From: Microbacterium festucae
GTDB lineage: Bacteria > Actinomycetota > Actinomycetes > Actinomycetales > Microbacteriaceae
Length of the DNA stretch: 64,000 nucleotides
Assembly: GCF_025421715.1 (NCBI RefSeq)
Contig: NZ_JAOEFC010000002.1
Coordinates: 682,001 to 746,000 of the forward strand
Direction of reading: 5' to 3'
The position numbers were made by a program, and so were the translations under genes. How positions within the stretch are numbered: position 1 is the stretch's first letter; every line of letters begins with the position of its first letter. Shown in pieces: positions 6,890-19,218 of this stretch. The notes under the pieces were generated by a model. It was not told the DNA's origin. It was given only the letters and a program-made list of their open reading frames with translations, and did not search any database.

Positions 6890-8809
6890 TCACCCCTGCT
6901 CGGCGCGCGCGTCGAACTCCTCGATGCGCGCCGCCGCGAGCTGCTCGATCGCCAGCTGGGCGTAGAGGCCGCCGCCCGCCAGCAGCTCGGCGTGGGTGCC
7001 CGACTCGACGATGCGGCCCGCTTCCACGACGTGGATGACGTCGGCGCCGACCACCGTCGACAGCCGGTGCGCGATCGACAGCGTCGTGCGCCCGCGCGCG
7101 GCGGCGTCGAGGGCGTCTTGCACCACCCGCTCCGACACGGTGTCGAGCGCGCTCGTGGCCTCGTCCAGCAGCAGCACCGGCGGGTCTTTCAGCAGCACGC
7201 GGGCGATGGCGATGCGCTGCTTCTCCCCGCCCGACAGCCGGTACCCGCGCTCCCCCACCACGGTGTCGTAGCCCAGCGCGAACGACGTGATCACGTGGTG
7301 GATGTTGGCCGCCGTGCAGGCCGCCTCGATCTCGGCATCCGTCGCGTCGGGTTTCGCATAGCGCAGGTTCTCGCGGATCGTCGCGTGGAACAGGTAGGTC
7401 TCCTGCGACACGATGCCCACGTGGTCGATGATCGACTCCTGGGTGAGTGCGCGCACGTCCGCCCCCGCGAACAGCACCTCGCCACCGGAGGCCTCGTACA
7501 TGCGCGGCGCGAGGTAGAGCACCGTGGTCTTGCCGGCGCCCGACGGGCCGACGAAGGCGATGTGCTCGCCCGGCTCGGCCACGAACGAGACGCCGTCCAG
7601 CGACGGGCGGCTGTCGGGCGCGGCATCCGGGTAGCGGAAGACGACGTCGCGGAACTCGATGCGTCCCACCGGGCCCGGCGCCTGCGCCACGGTGACCGCA
7701 CCCGGCTGGTCGGAGATCGCCGGCGTCAGGTCGAGGTACTCGAAGATGCGGGCGAAGATGGCCGCCGAGGTCTGCAGGTCGAGCGAGACGCGCAGCAGGC
7801 CCATGAGCGGCTGCAGCAACCGGGCCTGCACCGTGGTGAACGCGACGATGGTGCCGGCGGTGATCGTGTCGGTTCCCGCGCCGATGAGCCAGCCCGAAAC
7901 CAGGTAGATGATGGCGGGGACGGATGCCATGATCACCTGCACCACGGCGAAGAAGCCCTGCCCGCTCATGGCCCGCTTGATCTGCAGGCTCACCTGGTTG
8001 CGGTTCTCATCCTGGTAGCGGGCCGATTCGGCGGCCTGCCGGTTGAACGACTTCGACAGCAGCACGCCCGACACGCTCAGGGTCTCCTGCGTGATGGAGG
8101 TGAGCTCCGACAGCGACTCCTGCGTCTGTCCCGCGATGCGGGCGCGCACCTGCCCCACCCGCCGCTGCACGAGCACGAGGATGGGCATGATCGCCACCGA
8201 GATGAGGGTCAGTCGCCAGTCGATGATGATCATCGCCACCAGCGCCGAGATGACGGTGACGGTGTTGCCGAGGATGCTGGTGAGCGTGTTGCTGAGCACG
8301 CCCGACACCGCGCCGACGTCGTTCTGCAGGCGCGACTGGATGACCCCGGTCTTGGTGCGGGTGAAGAAGGCCAGCTCCATCGCCTGCAGGTGCTCGAACA
8401 GGCGCACCCGCAGGTCGCCGGTGACGCTGTTGCCCACCGTCGAGGTGAGCCAGGTCTGCACGACGCCGACGGCGGCGGACAGCAGGTAGAGACCGATCGT
8501 GACGGCCACCAGCTGGGCCAGCAGGGTGAGGTCGGGGCCGCCGCCGGCCACCGGGAAGAGCGCCTCGTCGAAGATGCGCTGCACGATCAGCGGCGGCACG
8601 ACGGCGATCGCGGCGCCGGCGACCACGAGGATGCCGGTGACGATGAGCCGCGCGAGATACGGGCGGAACAGGGCCACGACCCGCTGTCCGAGGTGCGGCA
8701 CCTCGGGCGCCTCGGCGTTGAGCCGGCGCTGGGCCTTCTCGTCCACACCCCGGAAGCCGGGGCGTCCGCCCGGGTGCCCGCCGCCCCCGCCCGGCCCGCC
8801 CATGCTCAT
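6890..8809 (-). CDS. ABC exporter, fused membrane and ATPase domains
   Basis: A 639-residue half-transporter of the MsbA/LmrA type, expected to work as a dimer. A Gly-rich N-terminus (MSMGGPGGGGGHPGG) precedes six predicted membrane helices (about 60-340). The ATPase domain carries Walker A GPSGAGKT, Q-loop GIVSQETYLF, signature LSGGEKQRIA, Walker B VLLLDEATSALD and the switch histidine SIAHRLS. Substrate cannot be read; drugs or lipids are likely. The ATG at 8809 overlaps the upstream membrane-protein stop (ATGA), so the two are translated together. Confidence 0.92.
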   Translation of the reverse strand: MSMGGPGGGGGHPGGRPGFRGVDEKAQRRLNAEAPEVPHLGQRVVALFRPYLARLIVTGILVVAGAAIAVVPPLIVQRIFDEALFPVAGGGPDLTLLAQLVAVTIGLYLLSAAVGVVQTWLTSTVGNSVTGDLRVRLFEHLQAMELAFFTRTKTGVIQSRLQNDVGAVSGVLSNTLTSILGNTVTVISALVAMIIIDWRLTLISVAIMPILVLVQRRVGQVRARIAGQTQESLSELTSITQETLSVSGVLLSKSFNRQAAESARYQDENRNQVSLQIKRAMSGQGFFAVVQVIMASVPAIIYLVSGWLIGAGTDTITAGTIVAFTTVQARLLQPLMGLLRVSLDLQTSAAIFARIFEYLDLTPAISDQPGAVTVAQAPGPVGRIEFRDVVFRYPDAAPDSRPSLDGVSFVAEPGEHIAFVGPSGAGKTTVLYLAPRMYEASGGEVLFAGADVRALTQESIIDHVGIVSQETYLFHATIRENLRYAKPDATDAEIEAACTAANIHHVITSFALGYDTVVGERGYRLSGGEKQRIAIARVLLKDPPVLLLDEATSALDTVSERVVQDALDAAARGRTTLSIAHRLSTVVGADVIHVVEAGRIVESGTHAELLAGGGLYAQLAIEQLAAARIEEFDARAEQG

Positions 8810-9453
8810 CGCAGGCCCGCCACGAGGTTGACGACGGCGGCGAGGATCACGGCGCCGAACAGGTAGCCCAGCAGCGTCTGGGCGACCACGACGCGGCGGA
8901 TGGCGCCCGAGCGCACGTTGGTGTCGGACACCTGGTAGGCCAGCCCCAGCCCGATCGCGAAGTAGGCGAAATCGGAGTACATCGGAGGCTCCTCCTGGTT
9001 GAAGTCGATGCCGCCGGCGGCGGGGCCGTCGCCGTAGTACATGCGGGCGTAGTGCAGCAGGTAGTCGACCTGGATGAGCGCCCACGAGGCGACCACGGCG
9101 ACCACCGCGACGCCCGCCAGCTCGAACGCGCGCGCCGGCGCGGCATCCCGCGACAGCACCAGCATGACGATGACGGCGGCCAGGCTCGCACTGCTGCCGG
9201 CCAGCGCGATCAGCCGGGCGACCGGGCGTGCGACGTCTTCGCGGGCGGCGTGCGCGCGGGTGCGCCCGGCATCCATCGGCCACACCACCAGCAGCACCCA
9301 CGCGACGTTGACCGCGGCAAGCACCGCCCAGCCGGCCAGCACCGCCGGGGCCGCCCCGAGCAGCGGGGTGAGCACCACCGCGGCGACCACTCCGGCCGCG
9401 AGGGCGCACAGTCCGCGCAGGGCGACGCCGGAACCACGCAGAGTCACGGTCAT
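8806..9453 (-). CDS. DUF1345-like integral membrane protein
   Basis: About 215 residues with roughly five hydrophobic helices. The loop PVARLIALAGSSASLAAV and the segment YYGDGPAAGGIDFNQEEPPMYSDFAYFAIGLGLAYQVSD match the conserved core of the DUF1345 family (function unknown). The ATG at 9453 is preferred to an in-frame TTG at 9459. First gene of a two-gene unit with the ABC exporter. Confidence 0.8.
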   Translation of the reverse strand: MTVTLRGSGVALRGLCALAAGVVAAVVLTPLLGAAPAVLAGWAVLAAVNVAWVLLVVWPMDAGRTRAHAAREDVARPVARLIALAGSSASLAAVIVMLVLSRDAAPARAFELAGVAVVAVVASWALIQVDYLLHYARMYYGDGPAAGGIDFNQEEPPMYSDFAYFAIGLGLAYQVSDTNVRSGAIRRVVVAQTLLGYLFGAVILAAVVNLVAGLR

Positions 9454-9564
9454 CCGCAAATCGTGTCACGGATCGGGAATGCCGGGGTCGGGCGCACCGT
9501 TGCAGTCAGCGTTCGTCCCGGATCTCGGGTACGACTTCCCGCGCCTTCACGAGGAGTCCCCGGC

Positions 9565-11070
9565 TTGTCCACGACCACTACCGGCACCATCCGCACGCCC
9601 GCACCGACGGCCACCGTCGGCGCGAAGGAGAACCGCGTCATCTGGCTGCTGCTGGCGGCCGCCTTCGTCGCGATCCTCAACGAGACCACGATGGGCGTCG
9701 CGATCCCGCACCTCATCGGCGACCTCGGCATCACCGCCGTCGCCGCGCAGTGGCTCACCACCGCGTTCATGCTCACGATGGCCGTCGTCATCCCGACCAC
9801 CGGCTTCCTGCTGCGCCGCTACACGACCCGGCAGATGTTCGCCACGGCCATGGGGCTGTTCTCGGTGGGCACGCTGATCGCGCTGGTCGCCCCCGGGTTC
9901 GAGGTGCTGCTCGTCGGCCGCGTCGTGCAGGCCTCCGGCACGGCGATCATGATGCCACTGCTGATGACGACGCTCATGACCGTCGTCCCGCCGCACCTGC
10001 GCGGGCGCATGATGGGCCGCGTCAGCGTGGTCATCTCCCTCGCCCCGGCCATCGGCCCCACCATGGCGGGGATCGTGCTCGACACCCTCAGCTGGCGGTG
10101 GATCTTCGCGATCGTGCTGCCCATCGCCGTCATCGCCCTCGCGGTGGGTGTGCGCTGGATCCAGAACCTCGGCGAGCAGACGCGCGCACCGCTGGACGTC
10201 ATCTCGGTCATCCTCTCCGCGCTCGGCTTCGGCGGGCTCGTGTTCGGCCTCAGCCAGATCGGCGGAGGCGGCCACGGCGATGCCACGGCGGCCGCCGCCG
10301 CGGCATCCGACATGGCCACCGTCACCCTCGTCGTCTCGCTCGCGGTCGGCGTGGTGGGCCTCGGCCTGTTCGTGTGGCGCCAGATCGTGCTGCAGAAGGT
10401 CGACGACGCCCTGCTCGACCTGCGCATCTTCCGCTCGGGCAACTTCTCGCTGTCGGTGGCGCACTTCGCGGTCATGTCGCTCGCGTTCTTCGGCACGATC
10501 ACCGCACTCCCCCTCTACATGCAGGGCACGCTCGGCATGTCGGCCACCGAGTCGGGCCTGGTCGTGCTGCCCGGGGCCCTGGCCATGGGCTTCCTCGGAC
10601 CGGTGATCGGCCGCATCTACGACCGCTGGGGCACCCGCGTGCTGCTGCTGCCGGGCACGATCGTCGTGCTGGTGATCCTCTGGTGGTTCACCACCCTCAC
10701 CGAGTCGACCCCGGTGTGGGCGCTGGTGGTCACCCAGACGCTGCTGTCGATCGGCCTGGCGATGTCGTTCACCCCGCTGTTCACGGCCTCGCTCGGCTCG
10801 CTCGAGCCGCGCTTCTACTCCTACGGCAGCGCGACGGTGTCCACCGTGCAGCAGGTGGCCGGTGCCGCCGGCATCGCCCTGCTCATCACGATCATGTCGT
10901 CGGTCAGCGCCTCCGCCGCAGCATCCGGAGCCTCCGAGGCCGCCGCCGGCGCCGCCGGCGCCCGCGCCGCGTTCCTGCTCGCCGCGATCATCGGCACCCC
11001 GCTGCTGATCAGCGCGTTCTTCATCCGCAAGCCCGCCGACGCCCCCGAGGGCGTCCCCGCCGGACACTGA
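9565..11070 (+). CDS. MFS multidrug transporter, DHA2 (EmrB/QacA) family
   Basis: A 501-residue permease with about 14 hydrophobic helices. Motif A-like GFLLRRYTTRQMF follows the second helix and motif C is GRVSVVISLAPAIGPTMAG. The start is a TTG at 9565, chosen because GAGGAG at 9551-9556 sits 8 nt upstream; ATG starts in this frame are too far in. Likely a proton-driven drug exporter of the inner membrane. Divergent from the DUF1345 gene; convergent with the phosphonate module, from which a large hairpin repeat separates it. Confidence 0.9.
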   Translation: MSTTTTGTIRTPAPTATVGAKENRVIWLLLAAAFVAILNETTMGVAIPHLIGDLGITAVAAQWLTTAFMLTMAVVIPTTGFLLRRYTTRQMFATAMGLFSVGTLIALVAPGFEVLLVGRVVQASGTAIMMPLLMTTLMTVVPPHLRGRMMGRVSVVISLAPAIGPTMAGIVLDTLSWRWIFAIVLPIAVIALAVGVRWIQNLGEQTRAPLDVISVILSALGFGGLVFGLSQIGGGGHGDATAAAAAASDMATVTLVVSLAVGVVGLGLFVWRQIVLQKVDDALLDLRIFRSGNFSLSVAHFAVMSLAFFGTITALPLYMQGTLGMSATESGLVVLPGALAMGFLGPVIGRIYDRWGTRVLLLPGTIVVLVILWWFTTLTESTPVWALVVTQTLLSIGLAMSFTPLFTASLGSLEPRFYSYGSATVSTVQQVAGAAGIALLITIMSSVSASAAASGASEAAAGAAGARAAFLLAAIIGTPLLISAFFIRKPADAPEGVPAGH

Positions 11071-11079
11071 CCCCACCGC

Positions 11080-11206
11080 CCCCGCACAACCGCGGGAGCG
11101 AGAACACGACACGCCGAGCCCCGGCATCCGGGCTCGGCGTGTCGCGTGTGCGGTCATGCTGTTGTGCGGGCCACGACGGGCGGATGCCGTGGGCCGCGGT
11201 GCGGGC
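11080..11206. repeat. ~120-bp cruciform repeat, copy 1 (left flank of the phosphonate module)
   Basis: Outer arms CCGCACAAC (11082-11090) and GTTGTGCGG (11161-11169) enclose a perfect 15-bp hairpin (CGACACGCCGAGCCC, loop CGGCATCC). The first 90 bp match 18026-18115 with two mismatches and no gap; similarity continues about 30 bp further with a few indels. It sits between the convergent transporter (+) and hydrolase (-) genes, so it may also terminate both transcripts, though no T-run follows. Confidence 0.9.
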
Positions 11207-11208
11207 CG

Positions 11209-11883
11209 TTAGGCCAGGCCGGCGATCAGGGTCGGCAGGTCGGCGACCGAGTCGGCGATGGCGTCGTGGTCGGCCCCTTCCAGCGCGGCGCGCGGGGTGA
11301 GGCCGGTGAGCACGCCCACCGCGTAGGCGCCGGCGTTGCGGGCGGCCTGCAGGTCGACGACCGTGTCACCGGCCGCCAGCACCGTGCGCACATCGTGCAC
11401 CCCCGTCGCCGCCATCGCCCGGTGGATCATGTACGGTGCCGGACGCCCGGCGGGCACATCGGAGGTCGTGACGACGGCATCCAGGTGCTGCGGCACCGTC
11501 CAGCCGACCGAGGCCAGCAGCGGCTCGACGACGTCATCCGAGAAGCCCGTCGTCAAGGCCACCTTCACGCCGTCGCCGCGCAGCCGTGCGATCGCCTCGG
11601 CGACGCCCGGGATGATCTGCGGCGGATGCGTGGCGTACGACTCGGCCAGCACGACGCGGAAGCGCTCGAACGCGGCCGCCACGGTGGCCTCATCGGGCTC
11701 GAGACCGCCCAGCCGCATGAGGGCGCTGATGGCGGTGACCTTGTCGGTGCCCATCCAGGTCTGCAGGTCTTCGGCGGCGACGCTCGCGCCGGTCTCCTCC
11801 ACCGCGGTGCGCAGCGCGTCGTAGACCGCGCCGTGGTCGTCGATGGTCGTCCCGGCGATGTCGAGGGCGATGAGGTGGAACAT
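11209..11883 (-). CDS. Phosphonatase-like HAD hydrolase (phosphonoacetaldehyde hydrolase type)
   Basis: A 224-residue HAD enzyme expected to break the C-P bond of a phosphono-aldehyde. The nucleophile motif ALDIAGTT has the D-x-A spacing of phosphonatases rather than the usual DxD. MGTDK puts a lysine (about K48) where PhnX has its Schiff-base lysine (MGLLK). LTTGFSDD and AAGDTVVDLQAARNAG are the later HAD motifs. This fits the 'phosphonatase-like hydrolase' subfamily often encoded beside a DAO-type oxidase. A GTG at 11916 overlapping the upstream stop would add 11 residues; the ATG at 11883 fits family length better. Last gene of the module. Confidence 0.85.
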   Translation of the reverse strand: MFHLIALDIAGTTIDDHGAVYDALRTAVEETGASVAAEDLQTWMGTDKVTAISALMRLGGLEPDEATVAAAFERFRVVLAESYATHPPQIIPGVAEAIARLRGDGVKVALTTGFSDDVVEPLLASVGWTVPQHLDAVVTTSDVPAGRPAPYMIHRAMAATGVHDVRTVLAAGDTVVDLQAARNAGAYAVGVLTGLTPRAALEGADHDAIADSVADLPTLIAGLA

Positions 11884-18025: not shown

Positions 18026-18151
18026 CCCCGCACAACCGCGGGAGCGAGAACACGACACGCCGAGCCCCGGCATCCGGGCTCGGCGTGTCGCGTTGGCGGT
18101 CATGCTGTTGTGCGGCCACGACCGGCGGATGCCGTGGGCCGGTGCGCGGGC
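18026..18151. repeat. ~120-bp cruciform repeat, copy 2 (right flank of the phosphonate module)
   Basis: Direct-orientation copy of 11080-11206, offset 6,946 bp, with the same 9-bp outer arms and 15-bp inner hairpin. It begins 3 bp after the regulator stop, again at a convergent gene junction, here with an aldo/keto reductase gene. Confidence 0.9.
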
Positions 18152-18164
18152 CGCGGGGCCGGCG

Positions 18165-19040
18165 TCAGTCGGTGCCGCTGGGCGGCGGGGCGCCGAGCGC
18201 GTCGACGGCGGCGAAGAACTCCGCCGGCACGTCGGCGGTGACGAGGCCGTCGAGGGCTGCGAGGCGTGCGGTGCTGGTGATGCCGACGACGGTCGCGTCG
18301 ACGAGGGGGCTCGTGAGCGAGAAGTGCAGCGCCGCGGCGGCGAGGTCGACACCGTGCTCGTCGGCCAGGGCGCGCACCCGCTGCAGGTGGGCGGCGAAGT
18401 CGGCGGGCATCTCGCGATAGCCGTAGTTACCCGAGCCGTTCGCGAGGGTGCCGCCGCCGAAAGGCGCCGCGTTGATCACGGTCATGCCGAGCTCACGCGC
18501 CAGCGCGAAGGTCGCGTGCGCGCTGCGGTCGACGAGGGTGTAGCGGTTGTGCGAGAGCACCGCGTCGAAGGCGCCGGTCTGCACGTAGCCGTGCACCTGC
18601 GCCATCGTTCCCGAGGCGATGCCGATCGCGCCGATCACGCCGTCGTCGCGGGCGCGGATGAGCGCCTCGACGGCACCGCCGCGACCCATGGCCTCGTCGT
18701 GGGTGATCGTGTACGGATCGTGCAGGTGGTAGAGCGGCAGCCGGTCGACGCCGAGACGGGTCAGCGACTCGTCGAGCGAGCGCCGCACCCGGTCGCCGTC
18801 GAAGCGGCCCGACTCGTCGGCATCCGCCTTCGAGTACACCAGAGTGCCGGCGGGAAGGCCCCCCGCACGCCGGATGGCCTCGCCGAGGCGGGCCTCGCTG
18901 CGCCCGCCGGCGTAGGCGTTCGACGTGTCGACACCGCCGAGCGGCGAGTGGATCAGGGCGTCGGCGAGTTCGTCCGCGCCGTCGCGGGAACCGAGCGACG
19001 AAGCGCCCAGAAGGATCGGGGTCAGAGGGATGGCGTGCAT
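18165..19040 (-). CDS. Aldo/keto reductase
   Basis: 291 residues, TIM-barrel NAD(P)H oxidoreductase. The tetrad is visible: Asp and Tyr in VDTSNAYAGGRSE, Lys in LVYSKADAD, His in LYHLHDPY. AALHFSLTSPLVDATVVGITS is the cofactor-side segment. Resembles L-fucose/D-threo-aldose dehydrogenase types; substrate not readable. The ATG at 19040 is set by TAGCGT 7 nt upstream. Confidence 0.88.
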   Translation of the reverse strand: MHAIPLTPILLGASSLGSRDGADELADALIHSPLGGVDTSNAYAGGRSEARLGEAIRRAGGLPAGTLVYSKADADESGRFDGDRVRRSLDESLTRLGVDRLPLYHLHDPYTITHDEAMGRGGAVEALIRARDDGVIGAIGIASGTMAQVHGYVQTGAFDAVLSHNRYTLVDRSAHATFALARELGMTVINAAPFGGGTLANGSGNYGYREMPADFAAHLQRVRALADEHGVDLAAAALHFSLTSPLVDATVVGITSTARLAALDGLVTADVPAEFFAAVDALGAPPPSGTD

Positions 19041-19047
19041 GCCGACC

Positions 19048-19053
19048 ACGCTA
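19048..19053 (-). promoter_or_regulatory. -10 box of the aldo/keto reductase gene
   Basis: TAGCGT on the minus strand, 7 nt before the ATG at 19040; leaderless. Confidence 0.5.
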
Positions 19054-19085: not shown

Positions 19086-19205
19086 TCAGTCAGTGCTGCA
19101 GCAGCCGCCGCCGCAGCAGGAGGCACCCTCTTCGGCCACGACGATCAGGTTCTTCTCGTCGGCGATGGGCTGCAGCGTGGGCGTGGGCAGGTTCGAGGTA
19201 GCCAT
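19086..19205 (-). CDS. 39-residue Cys-rich peptide with CCGGGCC tail, unknown function
   Basis: Short gene: MATSNLPTPTLQPIADEKNL, then IVVAEEGASCCGGGCCSTD and a stop. Four of 39 residues are cysteines, in two pairs split by three glycines. TAGCAT at 19213-19218 leaves 7 nt to the ATG, the same leaderless layout as verified neighbours, which argues the gene is real. A second in-frame ATG at 19214 overlaps the -10 box and is unlikely. It could be a metal-binding mini-protein, a modified-peptide precursor, or a cysteine-sensing leader for the reductase gene 45 bp on. I do not recognise a family. Confidence 0.65.
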   Translation of the reverse strand: MATSNLPTPTLQPIADEKNLIVVAEEGASCCGGGCCSTD

Positions 19206-19212
19206 GCGCTCC

Positions 19213-19218
19213 ATGCTA
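19213..19218 (-). promoter_or_regulatory. -10 box of the Cys-rich peptide gene
   Basis: TAGCAT on the minus strand, 7 nt before the ATG at 19205. Confidence 0.5.

Follow-up and report, generated by a model that had tools for sequence, protein, structure and literature searches.

A conserved 39-residue Microbacterium peptide with a C-terminal C-x4-C motif, possibly a detached FrnE-type redox tail

A short gene whose product ends in a run of paired cysteines raises two questions: is the peptide real, and what might its cysteines do? The window, the whole 64,000-nucleotide stretch of Microbacterium festucae DNA analyzed here, carries on its minus strand a 39-codon frame encoding MATSNLPTPTLQPIADEKNLIVVAEEGASCCGGGCCSTD, which begins with an ATG at 19205, ends in CCGGGCCSTD, and closes with a stop codon at 19088..19086. 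Read along that strand, the sequence TAGCAT is followed by a 7-nt spacer, GGAGCGC, and then by the ATG; thus, the -10 box that an earlier note had placed 7 nt ahead of the start codon was borne out. A longer listed ORF of 42 amino acids was rejected as the leaderless start because its ATG overlaps this -10 box. The features of the locus are collected in the table.

Table. Features of the peptide locus and its surroundings (window coordinates; the peptide gene includes its stop codon)
Feature	Position	Strand	Remarks
-10 box TAGCAT	19213..19218	-	TANNNT at -12/-13 in homologues; spacing would place transcription initiation on the A of the ATG or beside it
Gene of the 39-aa C-x4-C tail peptide	19086..19205	-	Conserved frame, purifying selection, single copy
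CCGGGCC codons, two overlapping C-x4-C pairs	19098..19118	-	C-x4-C in 56/56 Microbacterium members
Codons of the hydrophobic patch NLIVVA, 5' of the acidic linker	19134..19151	-	Patch before C-x4-C in 40/56 members
Aldo/keto reductase gene	18165..19049	-	Neighbour in this genome only; not counted as part of the system
DHA2-type MFS gene	9517..11070	+	Usual convergent neighbour in Microbacterium; about 8 kb off here

Homologues of the peptide were found in 27 of 59 Microbacterium genomes in a first search and in 115 of 247 by a profile search. Divergent relatives, such as MSGDTTPDTETPQKPLIALLTPETDDDVPPAARCCGGGACSLD, occupied the syntenic site in several genomes that lacked a profile match. When the frame was compared with those of its nearest relatives, pN was about 0.07 against a pS of 0.37–0.47, and the pooled pN/pS ratio, calculated from uncorrected distances, was 0.41. 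The earlier note had named conservation of the reading frame in relatives as a point to check; the frame is kept in the Microbacterium homologues and is under purifying selection. A TANNNT element was present at offset -12 or -13 in all 49 distinct homologues, with its last base 6–7 nt from the ATG, while the same upstream stretches gave a background of 0 in 1960 positions. Because the box stands at this distance in 49 of 49 cases, the peptide mRNA is probably leaderless.

No sequence match to the peptide was found in Pfam, NCBIfam or the PDB, and a tblastn search against plasmids returned no match. Structure prediction from the single sequence was uninformative (pLDDT 56) and lent no support to the docking proposed below. 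The gene is present as a single copy in its own genome and, with its homologues, its conserved cysteines and the selection acting on the peptide itself, the claim that the 39-residue frame ending in CCGGGCC is a real gene stood. These data identify a real, conserved and uncharacterised small protein that had previously been overlooked.

The number and position of the cysteines vary among family members, whose ends include CCGGGCC, CCGGGSC, CCGGSAC, CCGGFC, CCGGTSCC, CACGGCGC and CAGGFC. In most Microbacterium members there are just three cysteines, and in a single member two. C-x4-C is the only cysteine spacing common to every Microbacterium member (56 of 56, the two-cysteine member included), and it was also found near the C-terminus in 7 of 7 others. 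The linker ahead of it is net acidic in all members. A hydrophobic patch (NLLTVV, for example) precedes the motif in 40 of 56 members, as against a mean of 9 and a maximum of 17 in shuffles; the pattern was defined post hoc and the rows are related, which makes this count descriptive. A C-x4-C, and perhaps a patch and an acidic linker as well, are common to these peptides and to the fused tails of FrnE proteins. However, the same post-hoc patch pattern matched only 6 of 16 fused FrnE tails. One Microbacterium peptide (L052) carries CGVDGC, which is itself a motif of fused FrnE tails.

FrnE is a cytosolic disulfide reductase of the DsbA family. According to a review, FrnE proteins often end in CXXXXC, and in crystals of Deinococcus radiodurans FrnE a molecule's tail is found at the active site of a second molecule, with a Cys244-Cys22 intermolecular disulfide seen (PMC8945050). 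The tail cysteines of that enzyme are needed for full activity driven by NADPH and thioredoxin reductase, their loss lowering it, and for tailless FrnEs another mechanism of regeneration is assumed (PMC8945050). Similar to the D. radiodurans tail (DR_0659, PDB 5CNW, DsbA family cd03024), the Microbacterium peptide carries its C-x4-C close to the C-terminal end, with a flexible stretch and a hydrophobic patch ahead of it, and the FrnE tail, though fused, acts between molecules in the crystals (PMC8945050). In contrast to a fused tail, the peptide is a separate 39-aa protein, the cysteines are usually doubled (CCGGGCC), and the gene has its own, putatively leaderless, promoter and does not stand beside frnE.

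In relatives, CC-tail peptides and FrnE do occur side by side, a link that, like the invariant C-x4-C, lay out of reach of the earlier note. A CC-tail peptide gene lay directly downstream of frnE in 14 sampled genomes from four other Microbacteriaceae genera (g15, g48, g64 and g79, the last being Cryobacterium) and in two named Cryobacterium species, with peptide ends such as SCCGGGCCS, GCCGGACCATS and SCCGGSCCSV. The upstream partner in these four genera is a DsbA-family oxidoreductase with a CPWC motif, a tailless FrnE, whose closest solved structures are FrnE (5CNW) and SCO1869 (3GL5). Fused C-x4-C tails (CGPDGC, CGVDGC, CADGSC) were found in 12 of 24 actinobacterial FrnE-like sequences read, and also on plasmid copies of FrnE from E. 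coli, Klebsiella, Pantoea and Burkholderia.

A comparable arrangement was found on plasmids of Lactiplantibacillus, Pediococcus, Levilactobacillus and Leuconostoc (L402, L406, L457-L459), where a tailless FrnE is followed, 5–12 nt past frnE, by a “hypothetical protein” of 42-44 aa containing CGPDGC or CGPNGC. The operon there reads trxB-frnE-peptide-(trxA)-oxidoreductase, with trxA in some. Like the Microbacterium peptide, these are free-standing proteins of about 43 residues with a C-x4-C and a hydrophobic patch (TPFQVVGD..CGPNGC), here next to a tailless FrnE; unlike it, they belong to a trxB-frnE operon, have a Lys-rich end after the motif, and lack CC doubling. The two show no sequence similarity beyond the motif. 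In the lactic-acid bacteria the FrnE tail seems to have been split off a second time, independently.

Taken with the architecture of the peptide and the published finding that the fused tail docks in trans, the frnE linkage in relatives makes a detached tail the simplest reading: the peptide would serve in trans as a redox tail of FrnE type that stands on its own, a proposal we favor tentatively, as a little short of probable. It would be a small cytosolic protein, probably disordered, whose hydrophobic patch would dock it and whose acidic, flexible linker would lead to the C-x4-C. Acting in trans, the thiols of that motif would open the oxidised CPWC site of FrnE, or of another thiol oxidoreductase related to it, after which the thioredoxin or mycothiol system would restore them to the reduced state. 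For Microbacterium itself we infer FrnE as the partner, along with docking and thiol exchange. Searches of the open-access literature turned up neither a description of a FrnE tail as a separate protein nor an experiment on any free-standing tail peptide.

The weak point of the detached-tail proposal is that the peptide gene stands away from frnE in Microbacterium. In the genome under study, about 538 kb separate the peptide gene from frnE, which lies in a uppS-frnE-dusB region and whose product ends in WAEKQA, with no tail cysteine. No frnE adjoining the peptide was found in Microbacterium; the linkage was seen in g15, g48, g64 and g79. None of the readable copies of canonical Microbacterium FrnE, including those from genomes without the peptide, had a tail cysteine. 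A Microbacterium clade without a detectable peptide has a tailless FrnE too, and FrnE is likewise tailless in most other Microbacteriaceae genera. Because a tailless FrnE occurs without a detectable peptide, the tail is not essential, and this occurrence also counts against the proposal. The complementary pattern, fused tails on the FrnE of peptide-less Microbacterium, was looked for and not found. Some FrnE-like protein was present in every genome compared; three peptide-less genomes had distant copies only, a distribution so confounded by ancestry that we set it aside. Small-genome Microbacteriaceae (g47, g60, g84; L344-L353) encode CC-tail peptides of 31–32 residues, such as MATANIKLETPSATVGGGEEGGCCGGACCGGK, with neighbours unrelated to frnE; that these peptides do not stand beside frnE is a further point against a detached tail.

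CCGGGCC is also found at the ends of other proteins. A global scan for C-terminal CCGGGCC returned, among the matches listed, mostly FmdB zinc ribbons, which have only the tail in common with the peptide; on actinobacterial FmdB-type zinc ribbons it is widespread (L175-L254, among the matches listed). CopZ-like heavy-metal-associated proteins carried the sequence at the C- or N-terminus (L145, L146, L151), and at a further locus (L171, G107:C1:2322424-2322444) the frame with CCGGGCC runs into a putative ferrochelatase. FmdB proteins (TIGR02605) and CopZ-like proteins share with the peptide an identical last seven to eight residues, and differ in that their tail is fused to a folded metal-binding domain.

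Given these FmdB and CopZ-like ends, CCGGGCC may be a tail of general use in thiol or metal chemistry. The main rival to the detached tail is accordingly a soft-metal-binding peptide, a possibility that the earlier note had also raised under metal binding: a small chaperone or buffer that would hold Cu(I), Zn(II) or some toxic soft metal at its C-terminal cysteines. Such metals are well matched by vicinal cysteines, and the motif both ends many actinobacterial FmdB zinc ribbons and is fused, in other genera, to either end of CopZ-like heavy-metal-associated domains. However, no conserved copper, zinc or arsenic gene adjoins the Microbacterium peptide, and with mostly three cysteines, two in one member, and an invariant C-x4-C pair, there is no fixed multidentate set. 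We consider metal binding unlikely, while giving it real weight.

Less probable still is a general mycothiol- or thioredoxin-linked thiol peptide, a redox buffer or sensor without specificity for FrnE. Such a role would fit the genes that often adjoin the peptide in Microbacterium, which encode a Nei/Fpg-type DNA glycosylase, a DJ-1/PfpI protein and an AhpD-like protein of the carboxymuconolactone-decarboxylase (CMD) family, and it would fit the thioredoxin near one CC-tail gene in g85. However, these neighbours vary among genomes and are not thiol-specific, and the frnE linkage seen in four genera favours a single enzyme. A 169-aa membrane protein is another frequent neighbour.

In the usual Microbacterium layout the peptide gene is convergent to a DHA2-type MFS gene, which is followed by DUF1345 and then by an ABC exporter. 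Here the reductase and a cassette of about 7 kb stand between the peptide and the MFS, DUF1345 and ABC genes (11070..6890). The cassette encodes a HAD hydrolase, an ABC transporter, an FAD oxidoreductase and a GntR-like regulator, and looks like one for phosphonate use. It is flanked by a direct repeat at window positions 11080-11215 and 18026-18160 (90 nt at 98% identity, with 47 nt next to it at 85%); the repeat is an imperfect palindrome, and the genome has just two full-length copies. The cassette may have been inserted by recombination at this terminator-like repeat.

With ABC and MFS transporters nearby, and with a conserved N-terminal part (LQP..DKNLLxVV) and a Cys-rich end that resemble the leader and core of a RiPP precursor, the peptide might be thought to be modified and exported. 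However, no maturation enzyme was conserved within 5 kb in 26 genomes, and the core tolerates shifts and loss of cysteines. The MFS gene is retained in genomes without a detectable peptide, and for this reason we set aside the ABC/MFS neighbourhood as an exporter of a modified peptide. The earlier note had raised a modified-peptide precursor with the aldo/keto reductase as the possible maturase; with no conserved enzyme near the peptide and the reductase absent from the other loci, that idea found no support, and a RiPP precursor is very unlikely.

The reductase gene itself begins with a GTG at 19049 or an in-frame ATG at 19040, 36 or 45 nt past the peptide stop codon, the latter being the 45-bp gap previously described. 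Neither this gene nor the fatty-acid desaturase on the other flank was beside the peptide in any of 40 other loci. What comes next differs from locus to locus in both identity and strand; about half of these loci have no same-strand gene directly downstream, and in about half the gene next to the peptide is convergent. Past the Cys codons, a search for terminators or alternative structure yielded 0 terminators, no Rfam match and an unremarkable folding z of -1.27. Leaderless Cys-rich upstream ORFs of mycobacteria, the precedent for a leader, likewise end in Cys codons; in contrast to the Microbacterium peptide, whose downstream gene is unconserved, they are proposed to act in cis, and the precedent rests on a conserved downstream gene (PMC4633059). 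The earlier suggestion of a cysteine-responsive leader ORF controlling the reductase, attractive for its leaderless start, terminal Cys codons, 36–45 nt spacing and proposed mycobacterial counterpart (PMC4633059), is thus scarcely credible, because the reductase flanks the peptide in none of the 40 other loci, and selection acts at the protein level.

The conserved peptide adds a small-protein family without a Pfam or NCBIfam model. If the detached-tail reading is true, a separate tail peptide could recycle FrnEs that have no built-in tail, whose regeneration the literature calls different and leaves unexplained. More broadly, and more doubtfully, the resolving C-x4-C tail of FrnE may have become detached repeatedly in bacteria, as a free, diffusible peptide. 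Working in trans on FrnE, and perhaps on other oxidoreductases too, this peptide would act as a thiol relay that links NADPH-driven reductases to cytosolic disulfide repair.
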